A stretch of 64,000 nucleotides of DNA from assembly GCA_022821905.1 (NCBI GenBank), contig JAJECS010000015.1, positions 68,867 to 132,866 of the forward strand. Reading direction: 5' to 3'. Source of the stretch: Chloroflexota bacterium (lineage in GTDB: Bacteria > Chloroflexota > UBA11872). Positions 11,868 through 30,048 of this stretch are shown one piece after another. The notes beneath the pieces are model-generated. The model was not told the origin of the DNA. It did no database searches and was given only the letters and a program-made list of their open reading frames with translations. Both the position numbers and the translations under genes were made by a program. The stretch's first letter is position 1, and every line of letters begins with the position of its first letter.

Positions 11868-12430
<563 letters not shown>

Positions 12431-23841: not shown

Positions 23842-24906
23842 TCATGCGGCCGGCGCGCGAAGGTCGTGCAACACGTCCCGCACGATGTGAGGGTCCACGT
23901 GATGCCCCGGGCTGGCCGCGCCGATGCGCTCGGCCAGCACCCACTGGATGCGCCCGCCCCGCACCTTCTTGTCCCGCTGCATCGCCTGCACCAGGTCGTC
24001 GGGCGCAGCGTTGGCGAAAGTCTGCGGCAGGCCGACGCGCCGGAGCAGCGCGTGTTGCCGGTCGGCGGCGGCTCGCGCCAGCGTGCCTGCACGGACGCTG
24101 ATAGCCGCCGCGCCGCGCATGCCGATGGCCACCGCCTCGCCGTGCCGGTAGGCGCCGTAGCCGCAGACGGTCTCCAGCGCGTGGGCGATGGTGTGCCCGT
24201 AGTTGAGCACTGCCCGGGCGCCGCGGTCGTGGGGGTCCTCGTCGACGATTCGCGCCTTCCAGCGCACACAGCGCGTGACCAGATCCTCGAGCAAGGCCGG
24301 GTCGTCGAGCGCGTCGGCTTGCCGCTCGATCAGCTCGAACATGGCGGCGTCGAAGATCACGGCGGTCTTGATCACCTCGGCGTAGTCCGCCACCAGCTGC
24401 GCCCGTGGGAGCGTGGCCAGCAGATCCGGATCGATCACGCTCCGCCGCGCCGGGTAGAAGGCGCCGACGAGGTTTTTGCCCGCGGCCAGGTCGACGGCCA
24501 CCTTGCCGCCGACGCTGCTGTCGATCTGCGCCAGCAGCGTGGTCGGCACCTGGATCAAGGGCACCCCTCGCAGGTAGGCGGCGGCCACGAATCCGGCCAG
24601 GTCGCCTACCACGCCGCCGCCCAGGGCGATGATCGGGTCGCCGCGCTCGGCGCCCTGCTCCGCCAGCCAGTCCCAGAGGTCGTTGGCGGCGGCGACCGAT
24701 TTGCTGGCTTCTCCGGGAGGAACGGCGCGCGACCCGATCGCGACGCCGGCCTGCGTCAGATCCTTGAGGATGCGCCGCCCGTGCAGCTGCATCACGGTGG
24801 TATCGGCGATCACCCACGCGCGGGGCGGCAGGCCCTCGTGATCCAGCACCCGCGCCAAATGCCGGCTGGCGCCGCGATCGATCCAGATGTGATCCATGGT
24901 GTCCAT
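23842..24906 (-). CDS. aroB: 3-dehydroquinate synthase
   Basis: Second step of the shikimate pathway: converts DAHP to 3-dehydroquinate with NAD and a divalent metal. It has 354 residues, normal for AroB. 'PGEASKS', 'IIALGGGVVGDLAGFVAAAYLRGVPLIQVPTTLLAQIDSSVGGKVAVD' is the diagnostic NAD and substrate site. 'LNYGHTIAHALE' and 'HGEAVAIGMRGA' supply metal-binding His residues. The ATG overlaps the aroK stop by one base (TGATG). Confidence 0.97.
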   Translation of the reverse strand: MDTMDHIWIDRGASRHLARVLDHEGLPPRAWVIADTTVMQLHGRRILKDLTQAGVAIGSRAVPPGEASKSVAAANDLWDWLAEQGAERGDPIIALGGGVVGDLAGFVAAAYLRGVPLIQVPTTLLAQIDSSVGGKVAVDLAAGKNLVGAFYPARRSVIDPDLLATLPRAQLVADYAEVIKTAVIFDAAMFELIERQADALDDPALLEDLVTRCVRWKARIVDEDPHDRGARAVLNYGHTIAHALETVCGYGAYRHGEAVAIGMRGAAAISVRAGTLARAAADRQHALLRRVGLPQTFANAAPDDLVQAMQRDKKVRGGRIQWVLAERIGAASPGHHVDPHIVRDVLHDLRAPAA

Positions 24907-25454
24907 CAGGCGGGTCGGCAGCCCATGGCGGCGCGCACCTCGACAGCCAGCGCCTCGGCCACGTCGGCCACCGAGCGTTGGTCGGTGGCGATGTGCAGGT
25001 GGGCCTGGCGGTAGGCGGCTTCGCGCGCCGCGATCAGGTCGGCGAGGCGGCGGCGCGGATCGTCGCCGAGCATGGGCCGCGGCTCAGCCGCGAGTCCGGC
25101 CTCCAGCCGGGCGGCGGCGACGTCTGGGCTGACCTGGAGCCACGCGACCAGTCCGCGCGCCAGCAATCGTTCGCGGGTCGGCGCGTCGGCCATGGCGCCG
25201 CCGCCGAGCGCCCCGACCGCGCACGGTTGCGCAGTCAATTCATCCGCCACGGCGCGCTCCAGGGCGCGAAATGCCGGCTCGCCGTCCTCGTCGAAGATCT
25301 GCGGGATCGACCTGCCGTCGCGCGCCGCAATCTCGCTGTCGCTGTCCCAGGCCGTCCAACCCAGCCGGGTTGCCGCGGCCGTGGCGACCGACGACTTGCC
25401 GGCGCCGCTCATGCCCACGAGGAACAGCCGGTCGACGGGGCGGCGGTCGCTCAC
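24906..25454 (-). CDS. aroK: Shikimate kinase
   Basis: Phosphorylates shikimate at O-3 with ATP. It has 182 residues. The P-loop is 'GMSGAGKSS', the shikimate site 'WDSDSEIAARDGRSIPQIFDEDGEPAFRALE', and 'ALGGGA' follows. The frame extends upstream to 25610, but GTG at 25454 gives the standard length and overlaps the aroC stop (GTGA at 25451-25454). Confidence 0.95.
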   Translation of the reverse strand: MSDRRPVDRLFLVGMSGAGKSSVATAAATRLGWTAWDSDSEIAARDGRSIPQIFDEDGEPAFRALERAVADELTAQPCAVGALGGGAMADAPTRERLLARGLVAWLQVSPDVAAARLEAGLAAEPRPMLGDDPRRRLADLIAAREAAYRQAHLHIATDQRSVADVAEALAVEVRAAMGCRPA

Positions 25455-26635
25455 GTGGCCGCGGGAGCTGCCCGCGAAGCCGCCCGCTGCGCGCGCACCG
25501 CGGCCGCGATGTCCTCCATGTTGTCGCCGCCGAACTTTTCGAGCAGCGCGTCGGCCAGCACCAGCGCCACCATGGCCTCGCCGATCACGCCCGCCGCCGG
25601 CACCACGCACACGTCCGAACGCTCGAAGTGCGCCTGGGTGCGCTGCAGCGTCTTGACGTCGACAGTTTGCAGCGGCGTGCGCATGGTCGAGATGGGCTTC
25701 AGGGCCCCGCGCACGATCAGCGGCTGCCCGTTGGTCATGCCGCCTTCGGTGCCCCCGGCGCGATTGCTCAGGCGCGTCCAGCCGCGCGCCTGCGTGCGGT
25801 CGATCTCATCGTGCACGTCGTGGCCCCGACGCGCGGTGTTGTCGAAGGCGCTGCCAATCTCCACACCCTTGACGGCGTTGATGCTCAGGATGGCCTGCGC
25901 CAGGCGACCGTCGAGCTTGCGGTCCCAGTGCACGTGGCTGCCAAGGCCGATGGGCAAGCCCCAGGCGACGACCTCGAACACGCCGCCGAGGGTCGAGCCG
26001 GCCTCACGGGCGGCGTCGATCGCCTCGATCATGTCATCGGCGCGCTCCGGCGTGACGGCGCGCACGGGCGAGGCTTCGACGGCGTCCCAGGGCCAGGTTT
26101 CCGGTTGCAACGGGTCGAGATCGGGTGTGTCGTCGACCGGACCGACGCGCGCCGCCCGGCTGCGGATCTCGATGCCGGCGGCCTCCAGCAGCCGCCGCGC
26201 CACCGCGCCCGCGGCCACCCGCGAAGTGGTCTCGCGCGCGCTGGAGCGCTCCAGAATATTGCGCAGGTCGTCGGTGCCGTATTTGACCATGCCCGCCAGG
26301 TCCGCGTGACCGGGCCGGGGCTTGGTGACCGGCGGAATCTCCCCGTCGATCGGCTCCACCGCCATCTTTTCTCGCCAGTTGGCCCAGTCGCGGTTCTCGA
26401 GGAGCAGCGCCACCGGACTGCCCAGCGTGCGGCCGTGCCGCACGCCGCTCCGAATCGTGACCTGGTCGCGCTCGATCTGCATGCGCCCGCCGCGACCGTA
26501 GCCGCCCTGTCGGCGCGCCAGATCGGGATTGATGTCGTCCGCGGTGAGGGCAAGGCCGAACGGCAGTCCCTCGACGATGACGGTCAGTCCAGGGCCGTGC
26601 GACTCGCCGGCGGTGAGAAAACGAAGGCGTCCCAT
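25451..26635 (-). CDS. aroC: Chorismate synthase
   Basis: Last common step: EPSP to chorismate, needing reduced FMN. It has 394 residues. 'LRFLTAGESHGPGLTVIVEGLPFGL' is the N-terminal signature. 'GYGRGGRMQIERDQVTIRSGVRHGRTLGSPV' and 'SARETTSRVAAGAVAR' are the further family motifs. Full length. Four bases after aroE. Confidence 0.97.
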   Translation of the reverse strand: MGRLRFLTAGESHGPGLTVIVEGLPFGLALTADDINPDLARRQGGYGRGGRMQIERDQVTIRSGVRHGRTLGSPVALLLENRDWANWREKMAVEPIDGEIPPVTKPRPGHADLAGMVKYGTDDLRNILERSSARETTSRVAAGAVARRLLEAAGIEIRSRAARVGPVDDTPDLDPLQPETWPWDAVEASPVRAVTPERADDMIEAIDAAREAGSTLGGVFEVVAWGLPIGLGSHVHWDRKLDGRLAQAILSINAVKGVEIGSAFDNTARRGHDVHDEIDRTQARGWTRLSNRAGGTEGGMTNGQPLIVRGALKPISTMRTPLQTVDVKTLQRTQAHFERSDVCVVPAAGVIGEAMVALVLADALLEKFGGDNMEDIAAAVRAQRAASRAAPAAT

Positions 26636-26639
26636 GGTG

Positions 26640-27503
26640 CTAGGCCCCCGGCGCGGCCAGCGCGTTCCGGGCGGCCTCCATCATAGTGCCCACGGGTGCC
26701 GGTCGACCCAGCCACCGCTCGAGGCTGGCGGCGCCCTGCAGGACCAGCATCTCCAAGCCGCCCAGCACGCGACAGCCGATGGACCGTGCCTGCGCCAGCA
26801 GGGGCGTCTCCGCGGGGCGGTAGACGATGTCGCAGACGAACAGGCTGTCGTGCAGCCACGAACGCGGCAGCGGAGCCGCCAACGGATCCGGGCCGCCCGC
26901 CATGCCGAGGCTCGTGGCGTTCACGAGCAACGCGGCCGCGCGAAGCTCGCCGTGCAGCGCCGGGTCGTCGAGGCCGCAGCTGGTGACGGCGATCGGCTGA
27001 CCGGCGAGGGCCGCCGCCAGCGCGTCGGCGCGTTCGCGTCGCCGGTTGGCCAGCGTGAGATGTTCGACCCCGAGGTCCGCGAGCGCCCAGGCCACGGCGC
27101 GGCCCGCCCCGCCCGCGCCCACCAGCACGGCGCGCCTGCCGGACGGGTCGAAGTGACCGTGCTCGGTCAGCGCGCGCGAAAAGCCCTCCACGTCCGTGTT
27201 GTCCCCGATGAGCCGGCCGTCGCGCGCGTCGACCGTGTTCACGGCCGCCAGCCGCTCGGCGGCCGGCGTGCGGCAATCGACCAGTTCGGCCACGCGCAGC
27301 TTGTGCGGGATGGTGACGTTGAGCCCGCGCCATTCGCCGCAGCGGGCCTCTCGCAGGCGGGTTTCGACGTCCTCCGGCGGCGTCGGCAGGGCGCGATAGA
27401 CCGCGGACACGCCCAGGGCGTCGAGCGCCGCCTGCTGAAATGCGGGGGACAGCGTGTGTCCGAGCGGCCAGCCGATCACGCCGAAGCGGAGGTCGCGGGT
27501 CAT
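26640..27503 (-). CDS. aroE: Shikimate dehydrogenase
   Basis: Reduces 3-dehydroshikimate to shikimate with NADPH. It has 287 residues. Substrate site: 'VIGWPLGHTLSPAFQQAAL' and 'GLNVTIPHK'. Nucleotide site: 'VLVGAGGAGRAVAWAL' with a following 'NRRRERA' that favours NADP. Catalytic Asp in 'GDNTDVEGF'. The ATG overlaps the aroA stop (ATGA at 27500-27503). Confidence 0.96.
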   Translation of the reverse strand: MTRDLRFGVIGWPLGHTLSPAFQQAALDALGVSAVYRALPTPPEDVETRLREARCGEWRGLNVTIPHKLRVAELVDCRTPAAERLAAVNTVDARDGRLIGDNTDVEGFSRALTEHGHFDPSGRRAVLVGAGGAGRAVAWALADLGVEHLTLANRRRERADALAAALAGQPIAVTSCGLDDPALHGELRAAALLVNATSLGMAGGPDPLAAPLPRSWLHDSLFVCDIVYRPAETPLLAQARSIGCRVLGGLEMLVLQGAASLERWLGRPAPVGTMMEAARNALAAPGA

Positions 27504-28792
27504 TCGCTCAGCACCGCCAGGTCGTCCCAGAATCCGGGATAGGACACCGCGGCGATGGCGGCGCCGTCGATGGTGACGGGACCGTCGCCGGAGAGGGCGG
27601 CGGCCGCCGCCAGCATGGCGATGCGGTGATCGCCGGCGGCGTCAACGCGGCCACCGCCGGCGCGCTGGCCACCGGCGGTCACGAAGCCATCGGGCTGCTC
27701 GTCAACCTCGACGCCCAGGGCGGCGAGCGCGGCGGACGTCGTCCGCAGCCGGTTGGACTCCTTGGCGGCCAGATCGGCCGCGTCGCTGAGCCGGGACTCG
27801 CCGTCGGCGTGCGACGCCAGCAGCGCCGCCAGCGGCGCCTCGTCGATGAGCCGGGGGATGAGGTCGCCGCCCGCGTCGGCGGCGCGCAGGGATGACGATC
27901 GGGCGACGATGGTCCCCGCGGGCTCCGGCTCGTGGCGCTCGACCTCGACGCTCAGGTCGGCGCCCATGGCGCGCAGCACGTCGAGCAGGCCGGTTCGCAG
28001 GGGATTGAGACCCACGTCGCGAAGGACGATCTGCGCGTCGGGATGCACCACGGCCGCGGCAATCCAAACGGCCGCCGACGAGAAATCGCCGGGAATGTCC
28101 AGGTCCAGCGGCGCCAGCGGCCCGTTGGGCGCGCAACTGACCGTCGCGTCGTGTGACCTGACCGCGGCGCCCTGGGCGCGCAGCAGGCGTTCGGTGTGGT
28201 CGCGCGACGGTGCCGGCTGCTCGAGCGACGTGGGCCCCTCGGCCTGGAGCGCGGCGAGAAGGACGGCCGACTTGACCTGCGCGCTGGCCACCGGCGACCG
28301 CAGGCACGCCCCATGCAGGTTTGCCGGCGCGAAGGCCATGGGCGCGCGGGTGCCGTCGGCTCGGGCGCAGATGTGGGCACCCATGGCGCGCAGCGGCTCG
28401 ACCACGCGCGCCATCGGCCGGTCGCGCAGCGAATCGTCGCCGGTGATGAACGAATGGAACGGCCGGCCGGCGAGGATGCCGCCGACCAGGCGCACCGTGG
28501 TGCCGCTGTTGCCGCCCCACAGCACGTCGGACGGCTCGCGCAGGCCCGAAAACCCGCGACCTCGAACCACCAGCTCGTCGCCGTGCACGGCGTGCGCCAC
28601 GCCCAGAGCCGCGACGACGCCGGCCGTGGCCTGCGTGTCGGCGCCGAGCCCCGGCCGCCGAAAGCGCGAGTCCCCGGCCCCGATCGCGCCCAGCAGAAAG
28701 GCCCGATGCGTGATGGACTTGTCGCCCGGTAGGCGCAGCTCGCCGCGCAGCCGGCGCGCCGGCTGGACGACGCGCGTCCGCGCCGGCGGCAT
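27500..28792 (-). CDS. aroA: 3-phosphoshikimate 1-carboxyvinyltransferase (EPSP synthase)
   Basis: Transfers the enolpyruvyl group of PEP to shikimate-3-phosphate. It has 430 residues from ATG at 28792. 'LPGDKSITHRAFLLGAIG' is the PEP and S3P site; 'GGNSGTTVRL' and 'DRPMARVVEPLRAMGA' follow. The Gly-Asn-Ser region reads GGNSGT rather than the common GNAGT seen in class I enzymes. The frame extends upstream to 28999, overlapping aroF, but ATG at 28792 overlaps the aroF stop (TGATG). Confidence 0.96.
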   Translation of the reverse strand: MPPARTRVVQPARRLRGELRLPGDKSITHRAFLLGAIGAGDSRFRRPGLGADTQATAGVVAALGVAHAVHGDELVVRGRGFSGLREPSDVLWGGNSGTTVRLVGGILAGRPFHSFITGDDSLRDRPMARVVEPLRAMGAHICARADGTRAPMAFAPANLHGACLRSPVASAQVKSAVLLAALQAEGPTSLEQPAPSRDHTERLLRAQGAAVRSHDATVSCAPNGPLAPLDLDIPGDFSSAAVWIAAAVVHPDAQIVLRDVGLNPLRTGLLDVLRAMGADLSVEVERHEPEPAGTIVARSSSLRAADAGGDLIPRLIDEAPLAALLASHADGESRLSDAADLAAKESNRLRTTSAALAALGVEVDEQPDGFVTAGGQRAGGGRVDAAGDHRIAMLAAAAALSGDGPVTIDGAAIAAVSYPGFWDDLAVLSE

Positions 28793-29826
28793 CAGGTCAC
28801 CGCGGCGGTGGACGGCACCGTTCGCCCCAGCGCCTGCGCCATCGGCACGAGCTTCCGCATGAGCTGGGTGAAGTTCTCCAGGCTGAGACTCTGCGCCCCA
28901 TCGATCAGCGCCGTGTCCGGCGAGGGATGCACCTCGAGCAACACGGCGTCGGCGCCGGCGGCGACCGCCGCCAGGGTCATGGCTTCCACCATGTGCCACT
29001 TGCCGGTGCCCTGCGACGGATCGACGACGATCGGCAGGTGCGTGGCGCGGCGCAGCAGCGGCACGGCGTTCAGATCGAGCGTGAAGCGCGACTCGGTCTC
29101 AAAGGTGCGAATGCCGCGCTCGCACAACAGCACGTTGGGATTGCCCGCCGCCAGGATGTACTCGGCGCACATGACCCACTCTTCGATGGTGTTGCCCATC
29201 CCGCGCTTGAGCAGCACGGGGGTTTCAAGCCGCCCTACCTCGTTGAGCAGGGGGTAATTCTGCGCGTTGCGGGTACCGATCTGCAGGATATCGGCAATGT
29301 CCGCGATTTCCTCGACCTGCCGCGGATCGAGAATCTCGGTGATGACGGGCAAGCCGGTCACGGCCTTGGCTTCCTCGAGCAGCCGCAGGCCCTCGGTTCC
29401 CATCCCCTGGAAGCTGTAGGGCGAGCTGCGCGGCTTGAACGCGCCGCCGCGGAGAATCTGGGCGCCTTGCGCCGCCACGTGCTCGGCCGTGGCGATCAGC
29501 TGATCGCGGCTCTCGATCGTGCACGGTCCCGCCATCACGGCCACCGAGCCGTCGCCGATCGTGACGCCGCCGACGGTGATGGCGGTGCGCGCCTGCCCGT
29601 CGCGCCGCGCCGCCAGCTTGTACGGCGCGCCGACCGGCATGGCGGTTTCGACTCCCGGCATGCGCCCGATCTGCTGCAGCAGCTCGGGCGGGCGATGGCC
29701 GATCACGGCGATCACGGTCTTCTCGACGCCGTAGAGCATTCGCGTCTCCAATCCCTCGGCGCGGATGCGCCCGGCCACGGCTTCGATCTGGGCGCTGGAG
29801 GCCTGCTTGGCCAGGACGACAATCAT
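28792..29826 (-). CDS. aroF: 3-deoxy-7-phosphoheptulonate (DAHP) synthase with N-terminal regulatory domain
   Basis: First committed step of aromatic synthesis, condensing PEP and erythrose-4-phosphate. It has 344 residues. The first 75 residues ('MIVVLAKQASSAQIEAVAGRI...') are a ferredoxin-like regulatory domain as in class I-beta enzymes, where Tyr or Phe inhibits. The barrel has 'VMAGPCTIES', 'LRGGAFKPRSSPYSFQG', 'IGTRNAQNYPLL' and 'VDPSQGTGKWHMV'. ATG follows AAGGAG. First gene of the aro operon, directly behind the leader terminator. Confidence 0.96.
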   Translation of the reverse strand: MIVVLAKQASSAQIEAVAGRIRAEGLETRMLYGVEKTVIAVIGHRPPELLQQIGRMPGVETAMPVGAPYKLAARRDGQARTAITVGGVTIGDGSVAVMAGPCTIESRDQLIATAEHVAAQGAQILRGGAFKPRSSPYSFQGMGTEGLRLLEEAKAVTGLPVITEILDPRQVEEIADIADILQIGTRNAQNYPLLNEVGRLETPVLLKRGMGNTIEEWVMCAEYILAAGNPNVLLCERGIRTFETESRFTLDLNAVPLLRRATHLPIVVDPSQGTGKWHMVEAMTLAAVAAGADAVLLEVHPSPDTALIDGAQSLSLENFTQLMRKLVPMAQALGRTVPSTAAVT

Positions 29827-29858
29827 GGGGGAATCTCCTTCAGTGGAATCCGGGCAAT

Positions 29859-29884
29859 AAAAAAGCAGAGGCTTTGACCTCTGC
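29859..29884 (-). terminator. Intrinsic terminator in the aro leader (attenuator)
   Basis: Minus strand: GCAGAGG, loop TCAAAG, CCTCTGC, then six T. The run of T ends 33 bases before the aroF start, so it lies between promoter and first gene and would stop transcription before the operon. Read-through must be controlled for the operon to be expressed. Confidence 0.8.
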
Positions 29885-29910
29885 CGCCGGCGCGTTCTCG
29901 ACCGTGGGGG

Positions 29911-29988
29911 CTACATCGCGTGCGCACCCAGCCGCGCCGGCCGCGTAAACGCGAAGGTATACCGCTCGACCCGGCTGATTCGTGGCAT
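29911..29988 (-). CDS. Putative aro operon leader peptide (25 aa)
   Basis: ATG at 29988 to TAG at 29911. The peptide reads MPRISRVERY, then TFAFT, then RPARLGAHAM; residues 10, 12 and 14 are Tyr, Phe and Phe. It ends 27 bases before the terminator stem. A short frame rich in the operon's end products followed by a terminator is the hallmark of ribosome-mediated attenuation. The ribosome-binding site (GGCGCACGA region) is weak. A small CGCG-TTTA-CGCG hairpin covers the Phe codons. Not proved to be translated. Confidence 0.55.
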   Translation of the reverse strand: MPRISRVERYTFAFTRPARLGAHAM

Positions 29989-30019
29989 TCGTGCGCCTGC
30001 GCCGTCCCAATACGCCGCG

Positions 30020-30048
30020 AGTGTGCGCGCGAAGCTTCGATTCGTCAA
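30020..30048 (-). promoter_or_regulatory. Candidate promoter of the aro operon
   Basis: Minus strand TTGACG (30048-30043), 17-bp spacer, CACACT (30025-30020). It predicts a transcript start near 30013, about 25 bases before the leader peptide. The spacer contains the palindrome CGAAGCTTCG (30030-30039), a possible operator. The -35 is good and the -10 is weak. Confidence 0.45.

Follow-up and report, generated by a model that had tools for sequence, protein, structure and literature searches.

A candidate ribosome-gated attenuator with an adjacent helix before the aro operon of a Chloroflexota bacterium

The aro operon of the window, the 64,000-nucleotide stretch of Chloroflexota DNA analysed here, is preceded by a leader that we read as a ribosome-mediated transcription attenuator sensing the charging of aromatic tRNA and controlling the whole operon, in which a conserved helix (P1) would act as antiterminator by its adjacency to the terminator (T); the probability of this reading is put at about 0.6. 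Its basis is comparative, and three features point to it: a short frame with cognate codons, a covarying P1 whose start is mostly 7-8 nt from the last sensor codon (counted from that codon's first base), and T placed 0-4 nt after P1. The aromatic tRNA sensed at the window locus would be that for phenylalanine and probably also that for tyrosine. The element itself is real. Its promoter, 25-codon frame, helix and terminator, followed by aroF, were described in this order by an earlier sequence-only reading, and every part is present in the sequence:

30043..30048, minus strand: -35 box TTGACG, identical in all 14 f1 members
30020..30025, minus strand: -10 box CACACT, a weak match to consensus, 17 nt from TTGACG
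29911..29988, minus strand: leader ORF of 25 codons, ATG 29988 to TAG 29911, MPRISRVERYTFAFTRPARLGAHAM*; relatives retain both the frame and its aromatic cluster
29947..29961, minus strand: sensor codons TAT ACC TTC GCG TTT (Tyr-Thr-Phe-Ala-Phe), the aromatic cluster
29949-29947, minus strand: last sensor codon TTT, the fixed sensor position; TTT in 28/28 rows of alignment A3, with TT(T/C) part of the search pattern
29933..29941, minus strand: P1 helix, 5' strand gccggcgcg; 5/9 P1 pairs double-changed in A3
29886..29894, minus strand: P1 helix, 3' strand cgcgccggc, one base ahead of the terminator stem
29865..29884, minus strand: intrinsic terminator T, stem gcagagg/cctctgc; all cells paired in 28 sequences, 4/8 pairs double-changed
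29859..29864, minus strand: U-tract, six T, read from the sequence
28792..29826, minus strand: aroF, DAHP synthase, first gene of the operon (NCBIfam NF006421, TIGR01361)
23842..28792, minus strand: aroA, aroE, aroC, aroK and aroB, the rest of the operon (NCBIfam matches)

The operon runs aroF-aroA-aroE-aroC-aroK-aroB on the minus strand, and the aroF ATG at 29826 lies 32 bases beyond the last T of the U-tract. NCBIfam models match the shikimate kinase (aroK) of the window below their own cut-offs. One base is common to the stop codon of aroF and the probable start of aroA (TGATG, window 28790-28794), an overlap that suggests coupled translation of the two genes. The promoter arrangement TTGACG-17-CACACT is unchanged in all 14 family-f1 members of a 52-member set, the window among them, and TTGA(C/T)-N17/18-(-10) stands upstream of the leader frame in 47/52 members. 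A generic sigma-70 scan missed the window promoter, whose CACACT is a weak -10 box. The leader stop in f1 (14/14) and f2 (3/5) reads ATGTA(A/G) or TTGTAA, for which the reason is not obvious.

Conservation within the class was assessed with R1, a covariance model built on A3, an alignment of 28 leaders. AroF is present in 38 of the 41 class genomes, and R1 finds the element in exactly these 38; G007, G015 and G016 have neither an element in the R1 search nor AroF. By coordinates, the match lies just upstream of aroF in 37/38 genomes, the exception being G010, where aroF is at a contig edge and the element is on a separate contig. Two f5 genomes (G034, G037) match weakly, at E 0.001-0.002 in the class search, and are lost in the phylum-wide search. 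P1 and T together contain 17 pairs in A3, nine with both sides changed, and their double-change cells number 44 against a shuffled mean of 10.9. Paired cells amount to 96.8% in A3 versus 36.6-58.6% after sliding, while the number of further pair types (14, shuffles 14.4) shows no excess. Invariant in all 28 rows are TTT and the CCGG 6 nt downstream, both set by the search pattern, as well as the CCGG of the P1 3' strand, the GCAG/CTGC of T and the T run; four P1 pairs and four T pairs are invariant and hence uninformative on covariation. Among the 52 members, 28 distinct P1 5' strands occur. Relatives therefore keep the frame, its aromatic codons, the helix and the terminator together, with compensatory changes, which is the outcome that the check proposed in the sequence-only reading had looked for.

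P1 is also unusual against shuffled sequence. The window helix has p 0.01 against 200 dinucleotide shuffles, and across the set p<=0.01 is reached in 44/52 members and p<=0.05 in 51/52, L125 having no convincing P1 within the fixed search window (p 0.195). A strict detector, a script that requires aromatic cluster, helix and terminator in that order, finds only the aro leader on both strands of the 64-kb window. The detector overlooks true members: G211 (L146) is negative, yet it has an R1 match, and the script finds no core in L011 and L015, owing to a contig edge and an imperfect terminator stem, while the covariance model matches both genomes. Among the 4227 families of Rfam 15, none reaches the gathering score at the leader in the window or in L003, L174 and L140. 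Only one Rfam match reaches its gathering score anywhere in the window, a tRNA gene on the minus strand at 12357-12430.

In the wider phylum, AroF is detected at E<=1e-85 in 262/301 sampled genomes. The detector was positive in 12 of 59 aroF upstream regions, chosen by hand with one to several per family; among those negative are sampled regions of f22, f16, f34, f19 and f9. A further 20 regions were examined: the detector, run on ten, gave six positives, L132 included by hand, and the other ten comprise six class members with the element and four paralogues without it. The AroF-like paralogues L121-L124 of f3 genomes carry no element (4/4). R1 matches occur in 125/400 genomes at E<=0.01. Inspection of 45 R1 places outside the first set (13 second places in the class and 32 phylum places) revealed leader, helix and terminator in 42; the matches at L238, L264 and L265 do not show this set of parts and look false. 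Across 80 aroF loci of many phyla, the detector is positive twice (L033, L111), both in Chloroflexi, and negative at the other Chloroflexi loci of that set. Other families keep the layout in quite different sequence, with leaders of 11-12 residues in f24 (e.g. MSHFYFYDSPA), a 16-bp helix in f62 and Trp codons in f18 and f8. The occurrence in many families, the further copies ahead of genes for aminoacyl-tRNA synthetases and other aromatic functions, and the Trp codons of several lineages had gone unseen in the sequence-only reading.

Two observations concern the ends of these leaders. A promoter was called in 47 members (L140, L183, L184, L019 and L025, for example), and in 26 of them the farthest upstream start codon in frame is found 5-13 nt past the -10 box, which suggests that the leader frames of many lineages are probably leaderless or nearly so; in the window, this distance is 31 nt. 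At L119 (G038) and L120 (G030), the match between the query and the aroF that follows the element begins only at residue 62-63, and, given this partial match and a gene start within about 40 nt of T, the DAHP synthase seems to be without its N-terminal domain.

The identity of the sensor codon follows the downstream gene. By NCBIfam, tyrS lies downstream in seven copies (six f3 genomes and one f2 genome) and pheS in six (four f4 and two f49 genomes); the loci with a leader and the matching codon are L230, L232-L237, L239-L242, L250 and L268. The sensor position holds Tyr in 7/7 tyrS leaders, e.g. ASYSYRIPV*, and Phe in 6/6 pheS leaders, e.g. SHHVHFSPPA (f4 4/4, f49 2/2). Within f3, the aroF leaders have Phe (9/9) and the tyrS leaders Tyr (6/6) at this position, and the f2 tyrS leader likewise has Tyr. 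The tyrS leader of L234 includes one Phe besides, within the nine codons, and the f4 pheS leaders additionally contain Trp and some Tyr. These codon counts are not descent-independent, yet the tyrS copies stand in two families and the pheS copies in two others. Ribosome-based sensing of aromatic tRNA charging is very likely, since the codon at a fixed place before P1 fits the gene. Together with the conservation, the matching codons at tyrS and pheS lend support to the sequence-only proposal of a Phe/Tyr leader-peptide attenuator for the whole shikimate operon.

Further aromatic genes also stand behind the element. An AroG-type DAHP synthase (TIGR00034) is found downstream in G030 and G091 (L231, L257), genomes that also have a B. 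subtilis-type DAHP synthase. In G123, NCBIfam identifies chorismate mutase followed by prephenate dehydrogenase, behind a leader (RYGYY) with Tyr as its only aromatic residue. Chorismate mutase is downstream in G252 and G207, the latter with the leader FYYYY, and prephenate dehydrogenase in G144 (NCBIfam), with aroF coming next in all three by eye. At the other aroF places, the gene was recognised by eye from its translation, and aroF at L247 and L261 is putative.

The spacing of codon, helix, terminator and stop was evaluated in the 52 members, which form 15 family groups. From the first base of the last aromatic codon to the first P1 pair, the distance is 8 nt in 33/52 and 7 nt in 10/52; the remaining spacings are 3 nt in four members, 6 and 11 nt in two each and 9 nt in one. 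In f1-f4 this spacing is partly built in by the search pattern TT(T/C)-N6-CCGG, so the evidence is free of bias only in the other 18 members, where nine lie at 7-8 nt, 12 at 6-9 nt, four at 3 nt and two at 11 nt. The gap between P1 and T is 0-4 nt in 52/52, with 0-6 allowed in the search, and 0-3 nt in all 34 f1-f4 members, which were selected without using the P1 3' strand. P1 itself comprises 6-16 pairs, which enclose a loop of 19-58 nt. The G-C share of pairs 1-5 is 88-92% and that of later pairs 35-75% (family-weighted, 72-86% and 42-69%). The leader stop codon falls at -2 to +32 relative to the P1 start, at 28-29 nt beyond it in the window's family, and always ahead of the P1 3' strand (52/52). 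When the sensor codon occupies the A site, the start of P1 is mostly some 10-11 nt beyond the first base of the P-site codon, a spacing near that of frameshift-stimulating structures located at the ribosome entry. P1 should therefore stay closed while the ribosome waits, opening only once the sensor codon has been read.

The proposed mechanism proceeds from this geometry. Under starvation, uncharged cognate tRNA would make the ribosome wait at the sensor codons, P1 would lie just beyond the ribosome footprint and remain formed, and the closed P1 would physically exclude the adjoining T, resulting in readthrough into aroF. In replete cells, charged tRNA would let the ribosome pass the sensor codon to a stop at, in or behind the P1 5' strand, whereby P1 would be melted or excluded, T would close and transcription would stop. 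P1 would thus be an antiterminator by adjacency rather than through shared sequence, and the model would have the correct sign, with readthrough on starvation and termination when replete. In the view set out in PMC6624301, a terminator hairpin invades the RNA exit channel of the polymerase and, on completion, unwinds some of the hybrid, and termination fails when the channel is blocked. As the GC-rich base of P1 abuts T, whose own base must enter the exit channel, and as the 0-4 nt gap leaves hardly any single strand to leave the channel, T should be unable to close while P1 is closed. We infer this steric step from the geometry and the exit-channel view of terminators, and leader translation likewise. 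Because P1 is able to form without a ribosome, an untranslated leader would be ON, in contrast to classical attenuators; with the stop 28-29 nt past the P1 start, P1 in the window's family might re-form once the ribosome has left.

The search for a conventional antiterminator bears directly on this mechanism. The fold test, a thermodynamic test only, folds the RNA up to the terminator loop and compares the holding of the T 5' arm with 60 arm shuffles in five states: ribosome on the first aromatic codon, on the last one, or at the stop, P1 5' strand masked, and ribosome absent. In 52 members and 15 groups, the T 5' arm has no stronger upstream pairing than its shuffles. Its mean excess is 0.02 kcal/mol in the free state, 0.30 at the first codon, -0.70 at the last, -0.78 with P1 masked and -1.06 at the stop, with 6, 8, 2, 3 and 2 of the 15 groups above the null, respectively. 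The T 3' arm shows a small upstream-pairing excess of 0.17-0.52 kcal/mol, with 7-11/15 groups exceeding the null, which would be too little to hold the terminator open, although it is not nil. An antiterminator sharing either arm of T was not found in these 52 sequences, so no conventional structure is seen that would keep T open, and folding agrees with the sequence-only reading, which saw no clean antiterminator overlapping the terminator arm.

Two particular pairings were considered and rejected. The codon strand and the T 5' arm make a tempting pair by eye in f8, f62 and f18, with their Trp stretches and ACCAG-type arms; the idea was discarded on the free-state excess of 0.02 kcal/mol with 6/15 groups above the null, the individual free-state p values being 0.02 in f35, 0.12 in f30 and 0.23 in f18 and f62. 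A decoy copy of the T 5' arm pairing with the T 3' arm was dismissed for its slight excess; p 0.00 was obtained for f17, f18 and f62, each in one or two states of this decoy test, at 1.0-1.7 kcal/mol. As a separate observation, the Trp-codon leaders L129, L136, L174 and L132 have RCCRG-type T 5' arms that could pair with the UGG stretch, versus GCAGAGG arms elsewhere; this pairing is not above chance in the pooled fold test.

A classical attenuator is an unlikely alternative, although the best placed of those considered. In it, the stalled ribosome would mask the P1 5' strand, and the freed 3' strand or loop would pair with the T 5' arm, in a lineage-specific manner too weak or irregular for the fold test. 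Pairings of this kind are visible by eye in single members (the P1 3' strand with T in f62, the loop with T in f35), f35 exceeds its null both without a ribosome (p 0.02) and with one on the first codon (p 0.05), and the first-codon state has the highest pooled excess (0.30 kcal/mol, 8/15 groups). However, the T 5' arm is less pairable than its shuffles when the ribosome is at the last codon (2/15), when the P1 5' strand is masked (3/15) and at the stop (2/15), and the start of P1 is mostly just beyond, rather than within, the footprint of a ribosome at the sensor codon.

Slightly less probable still is a direct role of the ribosome, whose entry face P1 would bring beside T by looping out the intervening RNA, so that the stalled ribosome itself blocks T. 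The short codon-P1 and P1-T spacings around a loop that varies from 19 to 58 nt would suit this arrangement, and at MsrDL a stalled ribosome on the T 5' arm is described as blocking a terminator (PMC10314930); yet the ribosome would have to be present when T is made. Improbable, too, is the view of P1 or small loop hairpins as a pause hairpin that synchronises polymerase and ribosome while the switch lies elsewhere. Pausing hairpins have precedent in classical leaders, where a hairpin about 10-12 nt upstream of the polymerase active site causes the pause; against this stand the size and variability of the P1 loop and the adjacency of P1 to T in 52/52, which pausing does not need.

Hungry-codon frameshifting that carries the ribosome through T is very improbable. 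The spacing of P1 does match that of frameshift stimulators, and 23/28 class members have a +1 frame that stays open through T, but this frame is closed in L024 and in 4/5 f4 members tested, 15/28 class members have a closed -1 frame, and openness is the default for GC-rich sequence. Mere chance, an ordinary terminator behind a meaningless frame, has next to no probability, since the unremarkable free fold of the 156-nt window leader alone (z -0.81) is outweighed by conservation, covariation and the codon-gene match.

The adjacency reading extends, tentatively and at somewhat below even odds, to a Chloroflexota attenuator class whose antiterminator would share no base with T, consisting instead of an adjacent helix gated by one fixed sensor codon, and whose aromatic regulon (aroF operons, AroG-type DAHP synthase, aroH/tyrA, tyrS and pheS) would be retargeted by that codon. 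A phylum without such leaders in the literature searched thereby gains a putative peptide-leader regulon of aromatic biosynthesis and tRNA charging. Should the adjacency mechanism be true, a neighbouring helix can control a terminator without strand exchange, in a simple modular design of codon, helix and terminator that is retargetable by one codon and that escapes searches for overlapping antiterminators. The assumed rule of mutually exclusive pairing also becomes testable in a purified system.

The classical leader-peptide attenuators are among the nearest comparisons. The E. coli pheA, trp, his and pheST leaders have end-product codons, a short frame and a Rho-independent terminator before the first gene, and the Chloroflexota element shares these three features: end-product codons lie in a short leader ORF, and an intrinsic terminator stands between that ORF and the first gene. 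In classical leader attenuators, antiterminator and terminator share strands; here, no strand overlap was found, and the codon-side helix would be kept, not masked, at the stall. The element thus looks like ribosome-mediated attenuation, while the antiterminator with a terminator-shared arm that defines the classical form was looked for thermodynamically in 52 sequences and not found.

The literature searched holds nothing on Chloroflexota aro leaders, and the comparative attenuation study of Lopatovskaya et al. (2010) might hold related predictions. The nearest published system found is uORFC-13-1 of Acholeplasma, located upstream of aroF, for which attenuation is proposed (PMC8632094). Like the window leader, it is described with a possible promoter, a short frame in which a U run holds one Phe codon or more, and a further base-paired part with an apparent intrinsic terminator directly after it (PMC8632094). 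It differs in its 24 representatives, given as confined to Acholeplasma and unassigned environmental DNA, and, unlike the Chloroflexota element, in that no tyrS, pheS or tyrA members are mentioned in its description, on which the comparison is based; its authors leave the action of the extra helix open (PMC8632094). The actinobacterial trp, ilv and leu attenuators are a similar case of comparative prediction outside Proteobacteria, with leader peptides and terminators, but these leaders concern Trp, Leu/ilv and Cys, the trp ones have antiterminators, and an aro leader is not mentioned in the account given (PMC1262725). MsrDL is alike in that a stalled ribosome prevents an intrinsic terminator with no alternative RNA fold invoked in its description, and differs in a drug-dependent stall at the stop codon, where the ribosome covers the terminator arm itself (PMC10314930).

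The T-box (RF00230) has no match in the window at gathering score and none in L003 at E<=0.1. T-box leaders respond to uncharged tRNA with readthrough, the same logic as proposed for the aro leader, but without a leader peptide. The regions before trpE, ilvB and hisG of ten genomes were script-scanned for terminators and frames, nothing leader-like being noticed before hisG, and Rfam was run on six loci (L197, L212, L193, L199, L208, L226), of which two reach the T-box cut-off and L197 lies below it. In the window's genome, T-box matches stand upstream of ilvB (L212 3416-3631, 107.3 bits, above gathering) and upstream of trpE (L197 3026-3286, 77.2 bits, E 7.6e-16, below the cut-off of 93); upstream of trpE in the relative G020, the match has 104.8 bits (L193 3043-3313). 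With T-box matches at ilvB and trpE and a putative peptide leader at aro, two tRNA-sensing principles would share the amino acid genes of this genome.
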